NCBI RefSeq assembly: GCF_017876575.1
Contig: NZ_JAGIOE010000001.1
Location: forward strand, 3,762,443 to 3,826,442
From: Paeniglutamicibacter psychrophenolicus
GTDB taxonomy: Bacteria > Actinomycetota > Actinomycetes > Actinomycetales > Micrococcaceae
DNA: 64,000 nt
Direction of reading: 5' to 3'
A program made the translations under genes and the position numbers. Under the pieces are notes generated by a model. That model did no database searches, was not told the DNA's origin, and saw nothing but the letters and a program-made list of their open reading frames with translations. This document shows, piece by piece, positions 8,772 through 64,000 of this stretch. Position 1 is the stretch's first letter; every line of letters starts with the position of its first letter.

Positions 8772-8933
8772 CCGCGAGCGGGCTACGCATGCCTGCGGGC
8801 CACTAGACAATATGTAAGTGAGGCCGAAACCTCCGCTTCAAGCTTTCGTGGTTTGCCATGCGTTCGGGTCTTGGCCTTGCAGCCAAACCGCTGTGGAATG
8901 GTAGTGCCACATTGAAGGTTGGAGGTCCCGGCT

Positions 8934-10043
8934 ATGTCCGAGCGTACCTATATCGGGCTCGATGTCCATGCCCGCAGCATCGTGGGATGCGCCCTGAACA
9001 TCGACACCGGCGAATTGACCCGTTCACGTTTCGAGGACGACCTGCTGGGCACCGCGGAATGGGTACGGGGATTCGGCCCCGGGGTCCGGGTCGTCTACGA
9101 GGCCGGTCCCACCGGCTTCGGGCTGGCCCGGCACTTCCGGGCTGCCGGCATCGACTGCGTGATCGCCGCACCCTCGAAACTGCTGCGGGCCCCCGGAGAC
9201 AAAATCAAGACGGATCGGCGCGACGCCAAAATTTTGGCGACCATGCTGGCGCTGGGCGAGGTCACCGAGGTCACGATCCCGGACCCCGGGCAGGAGGCCC
9301 TGCGGGACCTCTCCCGCGCCCGGCATGTCGCCTCGGCCGACAATGCGCATGCCAAGCAGCGGGTCAATGCGATCCTGCTGCGCCACGGCATCCTCTTCCA
9401 AGGCGGCAAGTCCCGCTGGACCCGGGAACACCTGAGGTGGCTGCACCAGCAGCACTTCGAGGACCCGGCGCTCGAGTTCGCCTTCCAGGAATCCCTGGCG
9501 CAGGAGGAGTCCATGTCCGTGCGGCTGAAGCGGATCGACAAGGAGGTGGCCCGCGTCGCCGCGGACTGCCGCTACACCGAGATCATCAATGCCCTGGCGT
9601 GCCTGCGCGGCATCAGCACCGTGGGTGCCTTCGGGCTGGCCACCGAGATCGGGGACTGGACCCGCTTCAACGGGGCCACCATCGGCTCCTATCTGGGCCT
9701 GGTTCCCTCGGAGCATTCCTCGGGCGAGACCCGCACCCAGGGGCGCATCACCAAGGCCGGAAACGCCTACGCCCGCCTCCTGCTGATCGAGGCCGCAACC
9801 GTGCACAAGCGCCCGTACCGCAGGCCCGGGATCCTGGAGCTGCGCCAGCTCGAGCTGGTGTCCCCGGCCACCGCCGCCCGCGCCCGGCAGGGCAACCAAC
9901 GGCTCCATGCCCGCGCCGCGGCCCTCGAGGAACGCCACAAGATGCCGGCGAAGGCCAGGACCGCCATCGCCCGCGAACTTGCCGGCTGGTGCTGGTCCCT
10001 GGCCGCACCCCTGCAGGAAGGCCGCCCCATGGCAGGACGGTGA
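8934..10043 (+). CDS. IS110-family transposase (DEDD recombinase with Tnp_20 domain)
   Basis: A 369-residue transposase. The N-terminal RuvC-like DEDD domain shows D in YIGLDVHA, E in YEAGPTGFGL and the KTDRRDAK pair. The C-terminal Tnp_20 domain contains LRGISTVGAFGLATEIGD, the serine region YLGLVPSEHSSG and ITKAGNAYARLLLIEAA. The start at 8934 has GGAGGT seven bases upstream; an earlier ATG at 8919 lacks this. All catalytic motifs look intact and the frame is open, so the element may be active. IS110 enzymes recombine through a Holliday-junction-like route guided by an element-encoded RNA. Confidence 0.95.
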   Translation: MSERTYIGLDVHARSIVGCALNIDTGELTRSRFEDDLLGTAEWVRGFGPGVRVVYEAGPTGFGLARHFRAAGIDCVIAAPSKLLRAPGDKIKTDRRDAKILATMLALGEVTEVTIPDPGQEALRDLSRARHVASADNAHAKQRVNAILLRHGILFQGGKSRWTREHLRWLHQQHFEDPALEFAFQESLAQEESMSVRLKRIDKEVARVAADCRYTEIINALACLRGISTVGAFGLATEIGDWTRFNGATIGSYLGLVPSEHSSGETRTQGRITKAGNAYARLLLIEAATVHKRPYRRPGILELRQLELVSPATAARARQGNQRLHARAAALEERHKMPAKARTAIARELAGWCWSLAAPLQEGRPMAGR

Positions 10044-54328: not shown

Positions 54329-57202
54329 CTACCTGCCGGTAAGGTTCCAGGCGTCTTCCGACCCCTCGTCGTCCGCGCCGTCGTGGTAGTCAACCGCCTG
54401 TTCGAAGCCGTCGAGGTCCTCGGCGACCAGGTCGGTGCCGTAGTGGTTGGCGTTGGCGTTCTCCGCCAGGGCGGCCTCGGTCGCGGTCGGGACCACGTCG
54501 CCGGCGCCGGTTTCGTCCCCGCGCATCGCGGCCAGCACCTCGGGCAGGTCGTCGGGTTTGACCAGCACGTCGCGGGCCTTGGACCCCTCGGAGGGTCCCA
54601 CCACGCCGCGGGATTCGAGCAGGTCCATGAGCCGGCCGGCCTTGGCGAAGCCCACGCGCAGCTTGCGCTGGAGCATCGAGGTGGAGCCGAACTGCGTCGT
54701 GACCACGAGCTCGGTGGCCTGCAGCAGCAGCTCCAAATCGTCGCCGATGTCATCGTCGATCTGCTTCTTGGGCGCCTCGACTGCAACGTCGTGGCGGTAT
54801 TCGGCCTTCAGCTGCCCCTTGACGTGTTCGACCACGGATTGGATCTCGGATTCGGTGACCCAGGCACCCTGCACGCGCATGGGCTTGGAGGTACCCATGG
54901 GCAGGAACAGCGCGTCACCCTGGCCCAGCAGCTTTTCGGCGCCGGGCTGGTCGAGCACCACGCGGGAGTCGGTGACCGAGGAGGTCGCGAACGCCATGCG
55001 CGAGGGCACGTTGGCCTTGATCAGGCCGGTGACCACGTCCACGGACGGGCGCTGGGTGGCAAGCACCAGGTGGATGCCTGCGGCACGGGCCAGCTGGGTG
55101 ATGCGGACAATGGAGTCCTCGACGTCGCGCGGGGCGACCATCATCAGGTCGGCGAGCTCATCGACGATGACCAAGAGGTACGGGTAGGGCTTCATGACGC
55201 GCTTGGAGCCCTCGGGCGGGACGGCCTTGCCGTTGCGCACCGCCTTGTTGAAGTCGTCGATGTGCTTGTACCCGAAGTTCGCCAGGTCGTCGTAGCGGGT
55301 GTCCATCTCCTTGACCACCCACTGCAGGGCCTCGGCGGCCTTCTTCGGGTTGGTGATGATCGGGGTGATCAGGTGCGGGACGCCCTCGTAGGCCGTGAGT
55401 TCCACGCGCTTGGGGTCGACCATGACCATGCGGACCTCGTCGGGGGTGGCGCGCATCAGGATCGAGGTGATCATCGAGTTCACGAACGAGGACTTGCCCG
55501 CGCCGGTGGCACCCGCCACCAAGAGGTGCGGCATCTTGGCCAGGTTGGCCACGACGAAGCCGCCCTCGACGTCCTTGCCCACGCCCATGACCATCGGGTG
55601 GTCGGTCTTCCGCGCATTGTGGCTGCGCAGCACGTCGCCCAGCACGACGATTTCCTTGTCGGCGTTGGGGATCTCGATGCCGATCGCGGACTTGCCCGGG
55701 ATCGGGGAGAGGATGCGCACGTCCGAGGAGGCCACGGCGTAGGAGATGTTCTTGGACAGGGCGGTGACGCGCTCGACCTTGGTGCCGGGGGCCAGTTCGA
55801 TCTCGTAGCGGGTGACTGTCGGGCCGCGGGAGAACCCGGTGACCTTCGCGTCGACCTTGAACTGGTCCAGGGTGTCGGTCAGTGCCGCGACGACCGCGTC
55901 GTTGGCCTCGGAGCGTTCCTTGGATGGCGGGCCGGCGGGCAGGAAGTCGGAGGCCGGCAGCGTGTAGGTGACGTCCCCGGAGAGCTGGAGCTGTTCGGTG
56001 CGCGCCGGGATCGGCGGCAGCGGGGCCGCCGCGGGGCGCGAGGGGACCTGCTCGATCGCGCCGGTGGCGTCGTTGTCGTAGCTGGTCAGGTCGATGGCGC
56101 TCATGGCCTGGGTGTCGGCCTCGGGCTCGGTGCCCAGGCCCACGGATTCCATGATGGCTGCGCGTTCGCGCTCGTCCTTGGTGGGGCGGCGCACCCCGGG
56201 GCGGATGGCCGGTTCGGCATCGGCCTCGTCGGCGTAGAAGTCCATCGGGTCCACGGGTGCGCCGTGGTCGTCGGTGATGACCGCGGTGTCGTAGGCGCCC
56301 TCTCCGGTGTTGCCCAAGAGGTCCTCGGCGGCGATGGCCGCCTCGTCGCGGTCCTTGCCGAAGAGCCGCATCTTCTTGCGTGGCTTCTTCGCCGCGGCCT
56401 GTTCCTCGTAGAGGTAGGACTGGTCGTGGTCCTCGGCGCCCAGGTCCACGCCCTTGCTGGAGCCGGCCTCGGGGGCCTGGCCCATGAGCTTCTCGTAGCC
56501 CTCGCGGAAGCGTGCGGGGATGTGCCTGAAGGGGGTGGCGGTGAGGATCATCAGGCTCAACAGGGCCAGTGCGATCATCACCGTCAGCGCCCCGGGTGCG
56601 GATATCAGCCCGGCCAGCGGGACGGTGGCCAGCGCCCCAAGCACTCCCCCGGCGCCCCAGAGGACATCGAAAGGTGCCGAGACCGGAGGAAGTCCCCCGA
56701 CCACGTGGGAGATCCCGGACCCGGCCAGGGAACCGAGGGCCAGGCCGATGCCCACGCGGTTGTTGGCGCGGTGTTCCTCGGGCCAGCGGAAGAGCCGGAT
56801 GGCGCCGATGAGCAGGATCGGCGGCATGAGCGCGGCCATGAACCCGAAGGTTCCCCCGGCCACGGCGTGCACGAAGCCGCCGTACCAGCCGACCCCGCGC
56901 AGCCCCCACCATTCCACGGAGGCAATGACGATGGCGATGATGACCAGGAAGAGCCCGGTTCCGTCGCGGCGCACCTCGTAGTCCGGGTGCACGTCGCGGC
57001 CGATCTTGCGGAAGGCCCCGCCGGTGACACGCGCGATGCCCATCCAGGCCGAACGCACCATGCGCACCGGCAGCGGGAAATCGTGTTCGATCGCTGCGGG
57101 CGTGCTCTTGGAGTTTCTGGTCGTCTTGGACGAGGAGTTCGAGGCACGCGGTTTGCGCGTGGTCGTTTTCCTCTCGCCTTGCGAGGAAGTACGTGGGGCC
57201 AT
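54329..57202 (-). CDS. ftsK: DNA translocase FtsK
   Basis: A 957-residue translocase. A basic N-terminus precedes four or five membrane helices (about 75-260). An acidic linker follows, and the RecA-like motor has Walker A in [15 protein letters not shown] and Walker [14 protein letters not shown]. The C-terminal winged-helix gamma domain that reads KOPS sites begins near [20 protein letters not shown]. It acts at the septum in chromosome segregation. It lies just downstream of the metallophore operon on the same strand. Confidence 0.96.
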
Positions 57203-57309
57203 GGCTCTAGGGTATCGCCCAAGGGCGCCCGAACCCTGAATTTACACGGTTCGACGGGGAACCGGGGCGCTGGAGAATCGTCACAGCCCGTGCGGGCAAC
57301 GGCAGGAAA

Positions 57310-57349
57310 GCCGCCGGCAGGCCCCCGGCGAGGAAGCACTGCCGGCGGC
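57310..57349 (-). terminator. Hairpin between the metallophore operon and ftsK
   Basis: An 11-bp stem (57310-57320 with 57339-57349) in the 205-base gap between the last gene of the metallophore operon and ftsK. No T-run; it may insulate ftsK from the operon. Confidence 0.55.
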
Positions 57350-57407
57350 CGGGCGCAGATCGGTGGCGGATGGCTGCCCCGGATGCCGCGGCGGGGCAGC
57401 CGGTCGA

Positions 57408-58199
57408 TCAGCCGGCAGCCCCCGCCGGCGCCATGGCCGGCTCATCGGCCATGCTGAAGACCAGCTGCAGGGCGCCGCGCACGGAAACCGGTTCGACGTG
57501 GATCCCGTACACCCGCAGCAGCATCTCGGGGGTCAGCACCTCCTCGGGCGTTCCGGTCGCCACCGCCCGGCCATCCTGAAGCATGACCAGCTTCGTGCAG
57601 TAGCGCGCGGCCAGGTTCAGGTCGTGCAGCACGACCACGGTCGTGACCCCCAGCTGCCCGACCATGCGCAGCAGCTCGTGCTGGTAGCGGATGTCCAGGT
57701 GGTTGGTCGGTTCATCCAGCAGCAGGTGGTCCGCCTGCTGTGCCAGCGTGCGGGCCACCAGCACGCGCTGCTTCTCCCCTCCCGAGAGCGTGGAGTAGCG
57801 ACGGTCGGCCAGATCCCGGGCGCCGACCCGGGACAGCGCGGCGGCCACCGTGCGGTGGTCCTCGCGGGTGAAGGCGGCCAACGCCTTGCGGTGCGGGGCG
57901 CGGCCGAGCAGCACCATGTCCGCGACGGTCACCGGCAGGTCGGTGGGCGTTTCCTGGGCGACGACGGCCACCCGCCGGGCCAGCTCGGTGCCGCGCAATT
58001 GCGTGATCGGCTGTTCGTCGAGGACGACCAGCCCGGCCCGCGGGCGCAGGGCCGCGTACAGGGTGCGCAGGAAGGTGGACTTGCCGCTGCCGTTCGGGCC
58101 GATCAGCCCGACGACCTCCCCCGGCCCGGCGTGCAGCCCGACGGATTTGACTACCAGGTTCCCGCCGTAGCCGACGGAAACATCGGTGGCTGTGATCAT
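57408..58199 (-). CDS. FecE-type ABC transporter ATPase (metallophore uptake)
   Basis: A 263-residue ATPase. Walker A GPNGSGKST (34-42), Q-loop Q82, signature LSGGEKQ (138-144) and Walker B HLLLDEP (158-164) are intact. It belongs to the iron-siderophore/heme/cobalamin (FecE/BtuD/FhuC) group. The last 15 residues are Ala/Pro-rich. It is the last gene of the operon and should power uptake of the metal-loaded opine metallophore through the FecCD permease encoded 28 bases upstream. Confidence 0.93.
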   Translation of the reverse strand: MITATDVSVGYGGNLVVKSVGLHAGPGEVVGLIGPNGSGKSTFLRTLYAALRPRAGLVVLDEQPITQLRGTELARRVAVVAQETPTDLPVTVADMVLLGRAPHRKALAAFTREDHRTVAAALSRVGARDLADRRYSTLSGGEKQRVLVARTLAQQADHLLLDEPTNHLDIRYQHELLRMVGQLGVTTVVVLHDLNLAARYCTKLVMLQDGRAVATGTPEEVLTPEMLLRVYGIHVEPVSVRGALQLVFSMADEPAMAPAGAAG

Positions 58200-58227
58200 G
58201 ATTTGGGCCCCCTTGGGCGGTTGGTTG

Positions 58228-59370
58228 TCATTGGGTCGGGTTCAGCTTGCGCACCAGCACGAAGAGCAGCGGGGCACCGAGCAGGGCGGTGACGATGCCC
58301 AGCGGCAGCTCCTGCGGGGCCAGGGCCGTCCGGGCGAGCACGTCGGCCCAGACCAGGAAGATCCCGCCGAGGAGCGCCGCCACCGGCAGCAGCTTGCGGT
58401 GCGTGGAGCCCACGCACAGCCGCGCGATGTGCGGGATGACCAGCCCGACGAATCCGATGCCGCCGGAGGCCGCGACCAGCGCGCCCACGCAGAGCGCGGT
58501 CACCACCATCACCGCCGCGCGCAGCTTCGCCGGGGAGATCCCCATCGTTTGGGCCGTGGAATCGCCGATGGCCAGCGCGTCCAGCGGGCGGGACCAGAGC
58601 AGCAGCAGCGCGGTGGTTCCCGCCACCACCGCCCAGGTGACCAGCGCGGACTGTCCGGTGGCCTGGGTCAGCGAGCCGAGCGTCCAGAAGAGCACCGAGC
58701 GGCCCGCGTTGGGGTCGTCGGAGGCGAAGATCAGCAGCGAGGTGAGCGCGTGCAGCACGTAGCCCACGGACACCCCGGCGAGCACCAGCCGGGTGGAGGT
58801 CATCTGCGAACCGACCCGGGCGAGCAGGAAGACCGCGATCCCGGCGGCCAGCGCCCCGGCGAAGGCGCTGCCGGCCAGCGAGGCCGAGCCGATGCCGGCC
58901 GAGGCCCCGAAGAGGATCGAGGCCGCCGACAGGGTCGAGGCCCCTGAGGTCACGCCCAGCAGGTAGGGTTCGGCCAGGATGTTGCGCGTCAGGGCCTGCA
59001 GGGCCACCCCGGCCAGCGCCAGGCCGGCGCCGACGGCGGCGCCCAGCAGCACCCGGGGCACCCGCAGCAGCAGCACGATCGATTCCTCGGCGTCGGTCCA
59101 GCTGCCCGTCGGCTGGCCGCCGGACAGGTGCTGGCGGAGGATCCGGAGCACCGTGCCCGCTTCGATGTCCACCGGCCCGAGGCCCACGGCCACCGGCAGG
59201 GTGATCAGCAGCGCGGCCAGCAGGCCGGCGAGCCACAGTGCGGTGTGCCGGGTGCGTTGGTCGTGCTCCAGGTCGTCGCCGGAGAAGACCAGCGGCGCCG
59301 GGGGGCGTGGTGGTGGTGGTGGTGGTGGTGCGCTGCGCGGTTCGCGGAGCGCGGGGTCCAGCTGGGTCAT
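58228..59370 (-). CDS. FecCD-type ABC transporter permease (metallophore uptake)
   Basis: 380 residues with an unusual cytoplasmic N-terminus (about 1-45) that includes seven consecutive prolines coded by a GTG/CAC-type triplet tract. About nine membrane helices follow, with the conserved EPYLLGVTSGAS and the RLCVGSTHRKLLP/PQELPLGIVTALLGAP end of FecCD permeases. Only one permease gene is seen, so it probably acts as a homodimer. The start at 59370 overlaps the MFS stop by one base (TGATG). Confidence 0.93.
   Translation of the reverse strand: MTQLDPALREPRSAPPPPPPPRPPAPLVFSGDDLEHDQRTRHTALWLAGLLAALLITLPVAVGLGPVDIEAGTVLRILRQHLSGGQPTGSWTDAEESIVLLLRVPRVLLGAAVGAGLALAGVALQALTRNILAEPYLLGVTSGASTLSAASILFGASAGIGSASLAGSAFAGALAAGIAVFLLARVGSQMTSTRLVLAGVSVGYVLHALTSLLIFASDDPNAGRSVLFWTLGSLTQATGQSALVTWAVVAGTTALLLLWSRPLDALAIGDSTAQTMGISPAKLRAAVMVVTALCVGALVAASGGIGFVGLVIPHIARLCVGSTHRKLLPVAALLGGIFLVWADVLARTALAPQELPLGIVTALLGAPLLFVLVRKLNPTQ
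59307..59330 (+). repeat. Triplet repeat (GTG)8 coding a polyproline run
   Basis: Eight tandem GTG units on the plus strand (CAC on the minus strand) encode part of the Pro7 run near the start of the FecCD permease. Slippage in multiples of three would change Pro number without frameshift. Confidence 0.9.
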
Positions 59371-60605
59371 CAGGGCCTCTTCATGGAGTGGTCGTCGGTT
59401 GCGGTGCGCAGGGTGAGCGCGGCACCGAGGGCAAGCAGGGTGAATCCGCCGAGCACCGCGGCCGCGGCCAGGTAGCCCGCCGCGCCCAGCGCCGCCCCGG
59501 CGGCCCCCGCACCGAGGAACAACCCCAGGGACATGCCGGCGGCGTTCAGGCTCAGCGCGGTGCCGCGCACCTGCCCGCAGCGGCGCACCAGCAGGGTCAT
59601 CACCGCTGCGGAAACCACCGCGTGGCTGGCCGAGAGCACCGCGGTGCCCAGCATCGCCAGCGGCAGCACCGGGGAAAGGTACACCCCGAGCAGGGCCAGC
59701 AGGCCGGTGCCCAGGGCAATGGCCATCACGGCCCGGGTGCGCCCCTCGGAGTCCTCGGCGTTCAGCATCCGCCCGGCGAGCAGGTGCCCGAGGAAGAAGG
59801 ATCCTCCGCTCAGGGACCAGACGAAGGCGAACCAGCCGGTGGAGAGCTGGAACCTGTCCGCATACAACGGGGCGAGGAAGGCCAAGTGCCCCATCAGCGC
59901 GCCGGCCCGCCCGAAGGAGACCAGCAGCAGGGCCCGCGCCCCGGGGATGGCCGCCAGCGTGCGGAATGCGGCCAGGTATCCCAGCCGCGGGGCCGGCTCT
60001 CCCGCGCCGGGGTTGGCGCGGCCGTAGCGCACCAATGCGGGCGCCAGCGCGAGGGAGAGCACGGCGATCGCGATGAGATTGCCCTGCCAGCCCCACCACA
60101 GTGCCGGCAGCACCAGCAGCGGCGCCCCCACGGTGGAGGCCAGGGTCTGGGCGGTCATGACCAGGGTGGCGGCACGGCCCGCGGCGGGAGTGGTCCCGAA
60201 GCGGTCCGCGGCGGCGGTGGACAGCGCCGGGTAGAGCAGCGCGTTGGCCACGCCGGTGGCCAGGCAGAAGGCCGCCAGCGCGGCCAGCCCGGAGAAGGTC
60301 CCGAGCACCGCGGCGATGCCCAGCAGCACGAGGGCGGCGGCGGCCACGCGGCCCGGGGCGATGCGCCCGATCAGCGGGGCCAGCGCGACGCCGGTGAGCA
60401 CCGCGCCGACCCCTGCCAGCCCGCGCAGGGAGCCGACCTCTGCATAGCCGGCCCCGGCCCAGTCGGCGATCGGCACCAGGAAGGTGCTCAGCACGGTGAA
60501 GGGCAACAGGCCCACGGCCGAGGCCAGCAACGCCGGCCAGATCTCGGCGATGATCAGCCGTTCGCCGAGCAGCTTTTCGGTGGTGTCCGCTTCGGCCTGG
60601 CTCAT
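59370..60605 (-). CDS. MFS exporter of the opine metallophore operon (CntE-like role)
   Basis: A 411-residue major facilitator with 12 predicted helices. Gly/Ala-rich helices and a short N-terminal cytoplasmic part ([17 protein letters not shown]). In the staphylopine and pseudopaline systems an MFS or DMT-type exporter (CntE, CntI) encoded beside CntM exports the metallophore, so the same role is inferred. The start at 60605 gives an ATGA overlap with the opine dehydrogenase gene; the ATG at 60614 is the alternative. Confidence 0.88.
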
Positions 60606-61897
60606 GCCGCACACCCGATCCCGGCGCGGATCATGCCCAGGTCCTCGCCGAAGTCCTGCACGGTAAAGGCCGCGGAGCGCGGCTGGCCGGCAAGCCCCTG
60701 GGCCGCCTGCGTGAGCGCGTCCTCGTAGGCGTCCAACAGGTCATCGATCGTCGGGCAGGGAACCTCCAGGTGCCGGGCCACGCCCTGGATGATCTTGGTG
60801 CGGTAGTAGTCTTCCTTCGGCATCCGCGGCACGTCCCAGTGGCCCGAGTCGTTGCGGAAGATCGGCCGGATGGGGATGGCCGAGAAGTCGAAGTACCTCC
60901 CGTCCGCGCTTGGTTCGGAGAAGGGGTCCACCAGCAGCGAGGCGTAGCGCACGTAGACGAGGTACTCCTGGTGGATGGCCGGCAGCTGCTCGAACGCGGC
61001 CACGTCGGCCGGGTCGATGCTCTGCGGGTGCACCGGGTAGCCGTCGTGGAGCATGAAGGACAGCAGGTTGACTCCCCTCCCGCCCAGCGCGGCGACGATG
61101 GCAGAAAGCTCCCGCCACTGCTCGACCATGGTGTGGATCATCAACGGGGTGACGGGCCCCTCGGGGTAGAGCTTGTAGACGTACCGCGGCGGCTGCCCCG
61201 CGGCGAACACGGCGCGCAGCGCGACCTCGTTCATGAACAGCGCCGGATGCACGTACAGGGAGATGTTCCGTGCCTCGGCCTCCGCCGGCAGGCCGAGGAT
61301 CTGCAGCTCGGTGCCCGCCGCTTCATGCACCGCGCGCAGCCGCCGGAGACCGGGCGAGGCGCCGCGGCTTGACCCGGCGTAGATGCGGGCCTTGGCCCCG
61401 GCGGTCAGCACCGAGGCGCCCGGGGTGCCCTCCGGCCAGCGGGTGTCGCCCAGGTAGCTGGAGAAGCTGACGACCTCGGGATCCGCTCCCTGCGCCCTGG
61501 CGTACTCGCGCACCAGGGACCCGGAGCCCAGGGTGGGCGAGAGCAGCACGATGCGCTCGAAACCGCGGAGCACCTCGCCCGCCAGCTGGCGCAGCACCGG
61601 GAGGTAGGCGTCCGCGGTGACCGTGAGCACCAGGGTGTCCCACCTCCCGGCCACGGATCCGTATCCGCGGAATCGCTGCTCGATCCGGCACTCCCCCGCC
61701 AGCGCGGCGTGGCCGGCGTTCTGCACCTCGGCCCGGACGGTGCCGGCGTTGGCCTCCAACGCGGCGAAGAACGCCGCGGAACGCCCGGACTCGCGCCCCG
61801 CGATGCCCAGTTCCCCGGGCAGCCGCCCGAGCAGCACGGCGCTTTGCACCGCCACCGGGCCGGTCCCGGCAATGAGGATGTTTCCCAATTCGTCCAT
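60602..61897 (-). CDS. cntM: Opine dehydrogenase, staphylopine-synthase (CntM) family
   Basis: 431 residues. Rossmann start [18 protein letters not shown]. Family hallmarks: SYLGDTRW with D151, [14 protein letters not shown] with H217, [11 protein letters not shown], and the C-terminal [20 protein letters not shown]. The enzyme reductively condenses an amino group of the CntL product with a 2-oxo acid using NAD(P)H, giving an opine metallophore. From memory of the family, an Asp at the D151 position (D150 in S. aureus) goes with pyruvate use, and Ala with 2-oxoglutarate. It lies between the MFS and CntL genes, with 4-base overlap and 3-base gap. Confidence 0.95.
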
Positions 61898-61900
61898 CTG

Positions 61901-62746
61901 CTAAACGTCTTTTCTTGTCGGGCGCTGCTTCATGTACAGCGCGATATCGAACACCTGGTCGGGCCGGCGGATGGTGTCGGCCAGGCGCCAGCGCGCCGGG
62001 TCGACCTCCTGCATCGGGTAGTTGAACAGCGATTTCAGCCCGTCCCCGAAGCGCATGGCCACCACGACGTCCTCGCGGGTCAACCCATGCACCTGGTGCA
62101 ACAACTCGTATTTCACCGGCACCGTGGAGCTGAACACGATGTGGGTGGCCGCGGAAATGAAGTCCAGCTCGTGGATCGCGGTCCCCTCCAGCCCGATGTC
62201 CAGGCCTTCGCCCAACAGGGCCACGACCCGGCGCCCGAGCGCAATGGACTCGGCATCGATGTCGATCCCGAGCGTGGACGCCCCTGTGCGCGCGGCGACG
62301 TTCAGCAGCGTCATCGGGAAGGATCCCGAGCCGACGAGCAGCAGCTTCGAGTCCTTGGTCGGTGCGACGGCCCCGAATTCCTCGACGATGCAGGATTCGA
62401 TATTGGCGAAGTAGCCCTCCGCTCCCGATTCACCCTCCAGCAGGCGCAGCGCGCGGTACTTCTCGATGACTGCCACGCAGCGCGCCGACTGCGTGCGCAG
62501 CCCGTCCACCAGCTCGGCCGTGCCGGGCGCCGCGGCGAGTTGCGCAAAGGAGGCCTCGTTGCCCGGGTCGGTGACGAAGCGCGAGTAGTCGGCCAGCAGC
62601 TCTTCGAGCTCGCCGGCGTGCCGGGTCGAGCCGTCGTACCCGTTGGCGGCCGAGGCAAAGCGGCGCAGGTAGCCACGCAGCGTGCCCGGCAGGCCCTGGG
62701 CGGTTCCGCCAAGCGGCGCCGAAGTGTCGATTGCCGGTTCAGCCAT
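61901..62746 (-). CDS. cntL: Nicotianamine-synthase-like aminobutyrate transferase (CntL type)
   Basis: 281 residues. A helical N-terminal domain (about 1-125) precedes a SAM-binding Rossmann domain starting LLLVGSGSFPMTLLNVAA (136-153) and GIDIDAESIALGRRV. In CntL enzymes SAM donates its aminobutyrate group (not methyl) to the amino group of histidine. The start at 62746 (MAEPAID) overlaps the racemase gene by eight bases. Bacterial members use D-His when a CntK partner is present, as here. Confidence 0.93.
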   Translation of the reverse strand: MAEPAIDTSAPLGGTAQGLPGTLRGYLRRFASAANGYDGSTRHAGELEELLADYSRFVTDPGNEASFAQLAAAPGTAELVDGLRTQSARCVAVIEKYRALRLLEGESGAEGYFANIESCIVEEFGAVAPTKDSKLLLVGSGSFPMTLLNVAARTGASTLGIDIDAESIALGRRVVALLGEGLDIGLEGTAIHELDFISAATHIVFSSTVPVKYELLHQVHGLTREDVVVAMRFGDGLKSLFNYPMQEVDPARWRLADTIRRPDQVFDIALYMKQRPTRKDV

Positions 62747-63569
62747 GGATGTATGCCGTCCCTTCGGCCACGATGGCAACCTGCCCGGTGACCCGCAGCC
62801 CGGTCACTTTTCCGGAGCCGTAGTCGGCGTGGACGTACATGGTGCCGCCGGGCTGGCGCACGGCGGCGGACACCGGTGCCTGGGCCTTCGCGGCCAGGTA
62901 GGCCCCGAGCGAGGCGGTTCCCGAGCCGCAGCTTCCCTCCCACACCAGGCTGCCCAGTGCGGGGACGTTGACCAGCGGAGCCAGCTCGCCACGCACCGGG
63001 TCGTAGAGCATCACCCCGACCACGGACACGTCTTCGCTGTTCCCCAGCTGCACGGCCACCTGCTCGGCGCGCTCGCGCAGCACCGCATCGTGCCCGGAGC
63101 ACTCGATGACCAGGTGCACCGCATCCGCATACCGCACCATGGCGGCACCCGAGGGGGCGCCCGGGAACGGGTGCGGATCGATCCGGATCGGCAGCGGACC
63201 GGCCAGCTCGCAGCGGTAGCCCGAGCCATGGCGTTCGACACGGCAGTCCAGCAGGTCCGCGGCCCCCGAGGCCTCCAGCCGGAGCTCGACGGGGCCCTCC
63301 AAGCTCAGCGTGGCGGTGTGGAGCGCGGCCAGCGCCATGGTGGCGTTGGCGCAGAACTCGTCCCCCGCCATGTGCAGGCGCGCCTGTGCCTCGGGCGATT
63401 CCGGGGGCAGGACGAACCCGACCTGCTCGGCGTGCACATGCTCGGCGCGCAGCAGCTGGTCGGCGATGGCGCGGTAGTGCCACTCCGGGTGCCTGCTGGT
63501 CACCAGCAGGGTGGTGTTGCAGGTCGGGCTCAGCTTGACGAAGTCGACCTCGGTGGAGCCCCCGGACAT
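62739..63569 (-). CDS. cntK: Histidine racemase, CntK type (DapF fold)
   Basis: 276 residues from the ATG at 63569. The two catalytic cysteines of the DapF fold are C73 (MAGDEFCANATMA) and C214 (VWEGSCGSGTASLGAY). The order of conserved blocks (EQVGFV, DEFCANATM, the LVWEGSCGSGTAS loop, VRQPGGTMYV and VTGQVAIVAEGTAYI at the end) matches CntK of the staphylopine locus as I recall it. It converts L- to D-histidine for the metallophore. The start is uncertain: a TTG at 63662 would add 31 Pro/Arg-rich residues and overlap the upstream stop (TTGA); neither start has a good ribosome-binding site. Confidence 0.92.
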   Translation of the reverse strand: MSGGSTEVDFVKLSPTCNTTLLVTSRHPEWHYRAIADQLLRAEHVHAEQVGFVLPPESPEAQARLHMAGDEFCANATMALAALHTATLSLEGPVELRLEASGAADLLDCRVERHGSGYRCELAGPLPIRIDPHPFPGAPSGAAMVRYADAVHLVIECSGHDAVLRERAEQVAVQLGNSEDVSVVGVMLYDPVRGELAPLVNVPALGSLVWEGSCGSGTASLGAYLAAKAQAPVSAAVRQPGGTMYVHADYGSGKVTGLRVTGQVAIVAEGTAYIHG

Positions 63570-63658
63570 GGCGTGGCGCGGCCGGCCCGGTGCGGGCACC
63601 GCCTGTGCGCGCGGCCGTCCGGCGGGGCGCGCGGGCCGGCGCAGCTGCGTCGGCTGGC

Positions 63659-64000
63659 TCAAGGGGTGGCCAGCTTTTCGGCGAGCAGTTCCACCCCGTC
63701 AACGGCCAGCGGACCGGGCGAGGAATAGTAGTAGTTCAGCGGCACCACGGCCGCGTCGTCGTTGACCGCCTCAAGGCCATCGAGCTCGGGCCTCTCGCGT
63801 AGCTCTTCGAGCACGTCCCGGTCGGTTTCCATCGCCGAGGATCCGGTGGGCAGGTACATCGCGAAGACCTTGTCGGCCGCGCTGGCGACCAGCTCCTCCG
63901 TGGACGGTTCGAAGTAGCGCTTGGGCACCTTGCTGAACACGTTCTCCAGGCCCAGCAGTGACATCTGCTCCGAGACCAGCGACTCGTGCCCGTAGGACCC
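63659..64000 (-). CDS. FecB-like metallophore-binding protein (5' end cut by window edge)
   Basis: 113 codons are visible from the right edge to the stop at 63659, beginning SYGHESLVSEQMSLLGLENVFSKV. This is the C-terminal lobe of a periplasmic-binding (TroA/FecB-type) fold, with the D-T-D/LEELRERPELDGLEAVND helix and the PLNYYYSSPGPLAVDGVELLAEKL end. In Gram-positives it would be a lipoprotein capturing the extracellular metallophore for FecCD-E. The first gene of the operon in this window; the N-terminus and promoter lie outside. Confidence 0.88.
   Translation of the reverse strand, partial: GSYGHESLVSEQMSLLGLENVFSKVPKRYFEPSTEELVASAADKVFAMYLPTGSSAMETDRDVLEELRERPELDGLEAVNDDAAVVPLNYYYSSPGPLAVDGVELLAEKLATP

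Follow-up and report, generated by a model that had tools for sequence, protein, structure and literature searches.

The window analyzed here is a 64,000-bp stretch of the 4.9-Mb genome of Paeniglutamicibacter psychrophenolicus (contig NZ_JAGIOE010000001.1; G000:C1:3762443-3826442), whose right end carries a putative opine-metallophore operon with the gene order fecB-cntK-cntL-cntM-MFS-fecCD-fecE, MFS denoting a major facilitator superfamily transporter. These seven leftward genes extend from beyond the right edge of the window down to position 57408. Six are fully contained in the window, and fecB, which crosses the edge, was recovered from the genome. A first, sequence-only reading had recognized seven packed leftward genes of the CntK, CntL and CntM types together with an MFS protein and a Fec importer, a description with which open reading frames (ORFs), Pfam, NCBIfam and solved structures all agree. 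It had also called the operon complete, which holds for the genome but not for the window, where fecB is only partly included. The genes are as follows:

63659-64000, minus strand: fecB, C-terminal part, presumed metal-metallophore-binding lipoprotein (Peripla_BP_2; PDB phmmer match 5cr9)
L009:7660-8682, genome sequence: full fecB gene, with its ATG 681 bases past the window edge
62739-63662, minus strand: cntK, histidine racemase, TTG start (NF033599; PDB 6jis/6l4l; both cysteine columns)
61901-62746, minus strand: cntL, nicotianamine-synthase-like aminobutyryl transferase, ATG start (NF033601; PDB 7c9m)
60602-61897, minus strand: cntM, opine dehydrogenase (Pfam Staph_opine_DH; PDB 6h31; D151)
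59370-60605, minus strand: MFS transporter, presumably exporting or recycling the metallophore (MFS_1; gene junction)
58228-59370, minus strand: fecCD, one permease gene of the FecCD type, whose product presumably forms a homodimer (PF01032; translation)
57408-58199, minus strand: fecE, ATP-binding cassette (ABC) ATPase of the FecE/BtuD kind (PF00005)

The organization is compact. The fecB stop and the cntK start overlap in TTGA, the cntL ATG sits within cntK (an alternative upstream TTG would extend cntL to 62779), and 3 bases separate cntL from cntM. Further on, cntM and the MFS gene overlap in ATGA, the MFS gene and fecCD in TGATG, and 28 bases lie between fecCD and fecE. Based on these overlaps and short gaps, the seven genes are judged to form one transcription unit. 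The same seven genes in unchanged order occur in all 11 Micrococcaceae genomes having a cntM match, that of the window included, a recurrence that excludes chance.

Profile searches, which the sequence-only reading had proposed as a check, place the three enzymes in the CntK, CntL and CntM families and not in others. CntM scored 603 bits with Pfam Staph_opine_DH (cut-off 25), and its best NCBIfam match was NF033600 (443 bits; curated equivalog cut-off 675). Its nearest solved structures are the staphylopine dehydrogenases of Staphylococcus aureus (6h31, E 2.9e-100), followed by the pseudopaline and yersinopine enzymes. Directly upstream of cntM, the nicotianamine-synthase-like cntL product has NF033601 as its best NCBIfam match (275 bits; equivalog cut-off 350) and aligns with S. 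aureus CntL structures (PDB 7c9m, E 2.6e-68) over residues 34-284 of its longer form. For CntK, the best NCBIfam match was NF033599 (188 bits; equivalog cut-off 300), with E-values of 4.3e-36 and 1e-35 against the S. aureus CntK structures 6jis and 6l4l, and of 3.1e-18 against the Fusobacterium nucleatum histidine racemase. The S. aureus structure entries carry the name diaminopimelate epimerase; 6JIW is named as CntK in the available text of PMC11602996, which gives C72, mutated in that structure, and C211 as the catalytic cysteines. Both cysteine columns are invariant in the alignment of the 11 family loci.

The residue associated with keto acid choice is equally conserved. According to the available text of a survey of opine metallophores (PMC7438024), Asp at position 150 of CntM goes with pyruvate and Ala with alpha-ketoglutarate. 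D151 of the window CntM aligns with S. aureus D150, and this Asp is invariant in the 11 family cntM sequences, a broken copy included. Together with the histidine racemase, it makes staphylopine the predicted product. In a wider alignment of 77 CntM rows, position 150 is Asp in 10 of the 11 named actinobacterial sequences and Gly in one, and the 62 Bacillota rows comprise 54 Asp and 8 Ala. The sequence in which Gly replaces Asp is that of Actinokineospora (L056).

Genes of the import and export types are found within six ORFs of cntM. FecB matches Peripla_BP_2 (48.9 bits; 5cr9 by PDB phmmer, E 2.3e-31), FecCD matches PF01032 (283 bits) and FecE the ABC_tran family PF00005 (110 bits). The best NCBIfam matches of FecE are ATPases of F420-0, heme, siderophore and corrinoid importers, none of the 25 best matches listed exceeding the cut-off of its own model. 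The MFS protein scored 68.2 bits with MFS_1. Staphylopine producers would be expected to have a CntABCDF importer of the Opp/Nik type in the cluster; the present cluster has FecB/FecCD/FecE in its place.

Since the sequence-only reading had also suggested a search for a Zur site beyond the right edge, the region upstream of fecB was inspected in the genome. A Zur-type box, TGATAATGATTCTCA, occurs there in the fecB promoter region (G000:C1:3827207-3827221, outside the window), as part of an upstream sequence, TTGACAATTGATAATGATTCTCATTAGTGTTT, in which a 7-1-7 palindrome is flanked by TTGACA and TAGTGT, the likely -35 and -10 boxes. The box pattern GANAATNATTNTC is found upstream of fecB in 9 of the 11 loci, the remaining two having a near match. 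While TGANAATNATTNTCA occurs at a single place in the whole genome, AATGANAATGATTNTCATT with up to three mismatches occurs at 7, this one included (the reversed control pattern matched once on the reverse strand and never on the forward strand). Comparable boxes stand before other zinc genes, which represent a candidate Zur regulon:

L042:5354: Zur-type box before a CobW_C protein (28 bits, cut-off 22; nearest NCBIfam model MRF, 96 bits, cut-off 375)
L043:4734: Zur-type box before AztD (399.5 bits, cut-off 400)
L044:4801: Zur-type box before a ZnuA-type protein (PF01297, 167 bits)

A search of the genome for Fur-family proteins gave two. One is encoded about 2 kb from genes for a ZnuA-type protein and an ABC ATPase; the gene of the other overlaps what we take, from its sequence, to be a catalase-like gene. 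The candidate Zur protein is encoded at L046:6182-6796. The fecB box agrees at every fixed position with the Zur motif of Streptomyces coelicolor, tGaNNatSatNNtCa (PMC5472717, available text), and the operon is predicted to belong to the Zur regulon. Allowing one mismatch, this published motif has 139 matches per strand, versus 16 for its reversed control. Its use as a sufficient test was rejected, the exact motif having 6 places in the genome.

Taken together, these data make it probable that the locus is a zinc-responsive opine-metallophore operon of the staphylopine pathway under Zur control. CntK would produce D-histidine, to which CntL would attach the aminobutyrate of S-adenosylmethionine, and CntM would reductively condense the CntL product with pyruvate to yield staphylopine. 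The MFS protein would send staphylopine out of the cell, FecB would capture the metal complex outside, and a FecCD homodimer with FecE would bring it in. When zinc is present, Zur would bind the 15-bp palindrome that separates the likely -35 and -10 boxes and so repress the operon.

Several observations weigh against this model. The importer is of the FecCD type and not of the Opp type that serves staphylopine in S. aureus. CntK, CntL and CntM each fall below the NCBI equivalog cut-offs, although the right family is the best match in every case; none of the 395 family genomes passes the CntM cut-off, and these thresholds look set for staphylococci. The MFS protein has no blastp match at E 1e-3 in any of 11 Staphylococcus loci, and has only marginal ones (E ~1e-4) in 2 of 68 non-actinobacterial loci. 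A promoter scan gave no standard sigma-70 promoter and did not score TTGACA and TAGTGT, and the promoter and terminator scan was empty for the operon. The 6 exact places of the published Zur motif show that the motif alone is not specific. Finally, of three other places matching AATGANAATGATTNTCATT, the one examined (1751262) shows no adjoining zinc gene in the sequence viewed.

CntM was detected in 11 of the 395 family genomes, representing 3 of 32 genera, and, in a sample of 396 genomes from the phylum, in that of the window alone. Searches with fecB (E 1e-60 or better) revealed 13 family genomes, the 11 that have a cntM match and, in addition, G156 and G112. G156 had no cntM match in the family-genome scan; G112 is not among the matches of that scan, and CntK, CntL and CntM all lacked a match in the 19.5 kb around its fecB. 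In G112 (L196:7323-11520), the operon is devoid of cntKLM and the stop codon of fecB overlaps the start of the MFS gene; fecB, MFS, fecCD and fecE align free of stops, and the Zur-type box is perfect. In G156 (L175:4535-8847), cntL is absent and an open 51-residue remnant fuses the beginning of cntK in frame to the end of cntM. Its fecB, MFS and fecE genes are full length and its Zur-type box has one change; the frame of fecCD is broken near the start, this gene being 41 to 56 bases shorter than those of three relatives, with no difference divisible by three. Trees of FecB and of MFS plus FecE place the full carrier G075 as sister of G112 and the full carrier G168 as sister of G156, which indicates that the two cntKLM losses are derived and independent. 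A different kind of damage occurs in P. terrestris (G074), where cntM lies in two frames (L031:8688-10000; L052:9001-10266) and the other six genes each match in a single open frame. Both records derive from one assembly, so that an assembly error is possible.

Pairwise dN/dS values (nonsynonymous over synonymous substitution rates) between G112 and G075 were 0.16 for fecB, 0.18 for MFS, 0.14 for fecCD and 0.09 for fecE, similar to those between full carriers, and they also cover the time preceding cntKLM loss. Two FecCD values above 2, in comparisons with G201, were treated as an artefact and left unused, as the slice holds a stop letter that would shift the codon index if dropped during alignment. 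We tentatively suggest that at least two Micrococcaceae lineages became freeloaders after losing cntKLM, their box-fecB-MFS-fecCD-fecE units using the metallophore of neighbors. Survival of the MFS gene without synthesis would then imply a conserved task beyond secretion of new ligand, whether re-export and recycling or uptake, and hints at re-export of recycled metallophore. A similar situation was described in "cheater" staphylococci, which keep uptake without complete biosynthesis, such as S. lugdunensis with cntA and S. durrellii, which lacks cntK (PMC12709192, available text). Here, in contrast, the importer is an actinobacterial FecBCDE, cntKLM was lost from the operon interior, and the MFS gene was kept.

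These relatives bear on the most probable of the alternatives, in which the MFS protein mainly recycles imported ligand or assists uptake instead of being the primary exporter of new ligand. In its favor, the MFS reading frame has stayed open in both genomes that lack cntKLM, alongside fecB, fecCD and fecE in G112 and alongside fecB and fecE in G156, and its dN/dS between G112 and G075 is 0.18. However, this argument involves two genomes, the pairwise ratio averages in time preceding the loss, linkage might preserve a gene for some time, and the pump exports in characterized systems (PMC7438024, available text). We regard this role as less likely than export of staphylopine.

Another alternative is that the operon makes a different opine metallophore, built with another keto acid or modified later, which would account for FecCD replacing an Opp-type importer. 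A scan of named genomes gave 101 confirmed places, of which the best 80 were retained as loci, 12 of them actinobacterial. Six of the actinobacterial loci come from genomes that also belong to the family set: L049 (G095, Arthrobacter sp. MYb229), L050 (G075, Arthrobacter sp. MYb214), L051 (G092, Kocuria polaris), L052 (G074, Paeniglutamicibacter terrestris), L055 (G245, Glutamicibacter uratoxydans) and L121 (G157, Glutamicibacter sp. PS). Based on gene order, the actinobacterial loci can be divided into two layouts. Layout A, fecB-cntKLM-MFS-fecCD-fecE, comprises 8 of the 12, namely these six together with Pseudonocardia alaniniphila and Austwickia chelonae, and was seen in none of the 68 other loci. 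Layout B, represented by Actinokineospora, Actinosynnema, Actinophytocola and Saccharothrix, places fecB behind the MFS gene and carries a methyltransferase gene behind fecE (PF13649, by Pfam on three; tblastn on all four):

L056, L057, L058 and L084, near 14.6-15.5 kb: layout B methyltransferase gene behind fecE

A tblastn search for this methyltransferase gene (E 1e-3) gave no match in layout A and its receiver-only derivatives (17 loci from 15 genomes) or in the final 20 kb of the window.

The survey suggests that FecCD accompanies bulkier, modified zincophores in actinomycetes (PMC7438024, available text), and the window CntM is only 40-43% identical to the CntM of 11 Staphylococcus loci, both of which would suit a different opine. 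Yet no methyl- or acetyltransferase is present among the seven operon genes, the layout B methyltransferase is confined to its own four loci in this comparison, and the CntM Asp is retained. A different opine is therefore unlikely, and a methyltransferase-modified product was rejected for layout A.

It is quite improbable that the operon mainly serves iron, or many metals at once, and answers to Fur or DtxR. In favor of this reading, the fecB box resembles a classical Fur box too. Zincophores also bind other transition metals (PMC7438024, available text). Against it stand the similar boxes preceding CobW_C/MRF-like, AztD and ZnuA-type genes and the two Fur-family proteins, one encoded close to a ZnuA-type gene and the other overlapping the catalase-like gene (DtxR-family regulators were not searched for).

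The CntM tree comprised 76 of the 80 loci and the window, and was built by a quick method with Shimodaira-Hasegawa-like approximate likelihood ratio test (SH-aLRT) support only; L052, L088, L115 and L123, in which the best open frame covers only part of cntM, were omitted. The actinobacterial sequences formed one group (99) among Paenibacillaceae, split into layouts A (99) and B (99), a topology consistent with, without proving, one ancient transfer. A FecCD tree joined the importers of the two layouts (SH-aLRT 94%, without star, many long branches) and appears compatible with either a common or a separate importer origin.

The sequence-only reading regarded a self-contained actinobacterial version as undescribed, a view rejected on the published survey (PMC7438024; Morey and Kehl-Fie, 2020), of which the available text reports opine metallophores in about 250 species of four phyla, including actinobacteria. 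Of the 24 actinobacterial biosynthetic gene clusters in its CntM cluster 1, 14 have FecCD as their sole importer type and 10 combine the two types. The survey already names actinomycetes that encode an MFS pump, a FecCD importer and a predicted histidine racemase. Like the operon described here, these clusters combine CntKLM, MFS and FecCD. The FecCD-only actinomycetes are said to encode a methyltransferase too, in contrast to the present operon, which has none and begins with fecB. Published counts of 14 FecCD-only clusters versus 8 methyltransferases nevertheless leave room for layout A. What is added here is thus a subtype with conserved gene order, fecB first and no methyltransferase, along with its receiver-only derivatives. 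The open-licence literature matches listed included no experimental study of an opine metallophore from an actinobacterium.

Two characterized systems offer further comparison. The S. aureus cnt operon shares the cntKLM order, the CntK cysteines, the Asp at position 150 of CntM and an MFS gene in the cluster; it differs by its CntABCDF importer, where the present operon has FecB/FecCD/FecE with fecB first, a Zur-type box of the actinobacterial kind, and an MFS protein without significant blastp similarity to the Staphylococcus loci. Bacillopaline of Paenibacillus mucilaginosus also follows the D-histidine route, and its CntM falls in the network cluster of the actinobacterial ones, but it has Ala at position 150 and uses alpha-ketoglutarate, and the Bacillales of its cluster have Opp-type importers (PMC7438024, available text). 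With its FecBCD-type importer and predicted Zur switch, the operon represents a proposed staphylopine pathway in an actinobacterium that is concrete and open to testing. Its receiver-only relatives are natural strains for asking who shares metallophore with whom, and for probing MFS recycling of the ligand following metal release.

In the window genome, the operon is flanked on one side by RNase J with dapA (Pfam). The genes on the other side, judged from their sequences, are presumably ftsK and pgsA. Both flanks were found in five of ten other family loci examined (L025, L028-L031), RNase J alone adjoins the operon in G168 and G126, and neither flank was seen in L022-L024. A close fecB is missing from 10 of the 15 genomes of the genus (one weak match, in G190), and in all 8 fetched of those 10 RNase J and ftsK lie at most 11 kb apart, with at most 1.5 kb between them in three. 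Across the genus, the content of the RNase J/ftsK interval varies, from next to nothing to the operon or several kb of other DNA (window 57202-57408; L009:8682-9194; L171-L181). Elsewhere in the window, a plus-strand ORF at 8919-10043, near apparent arginine-synthesis genes, resembles what we take to be an IS110-type transposase.

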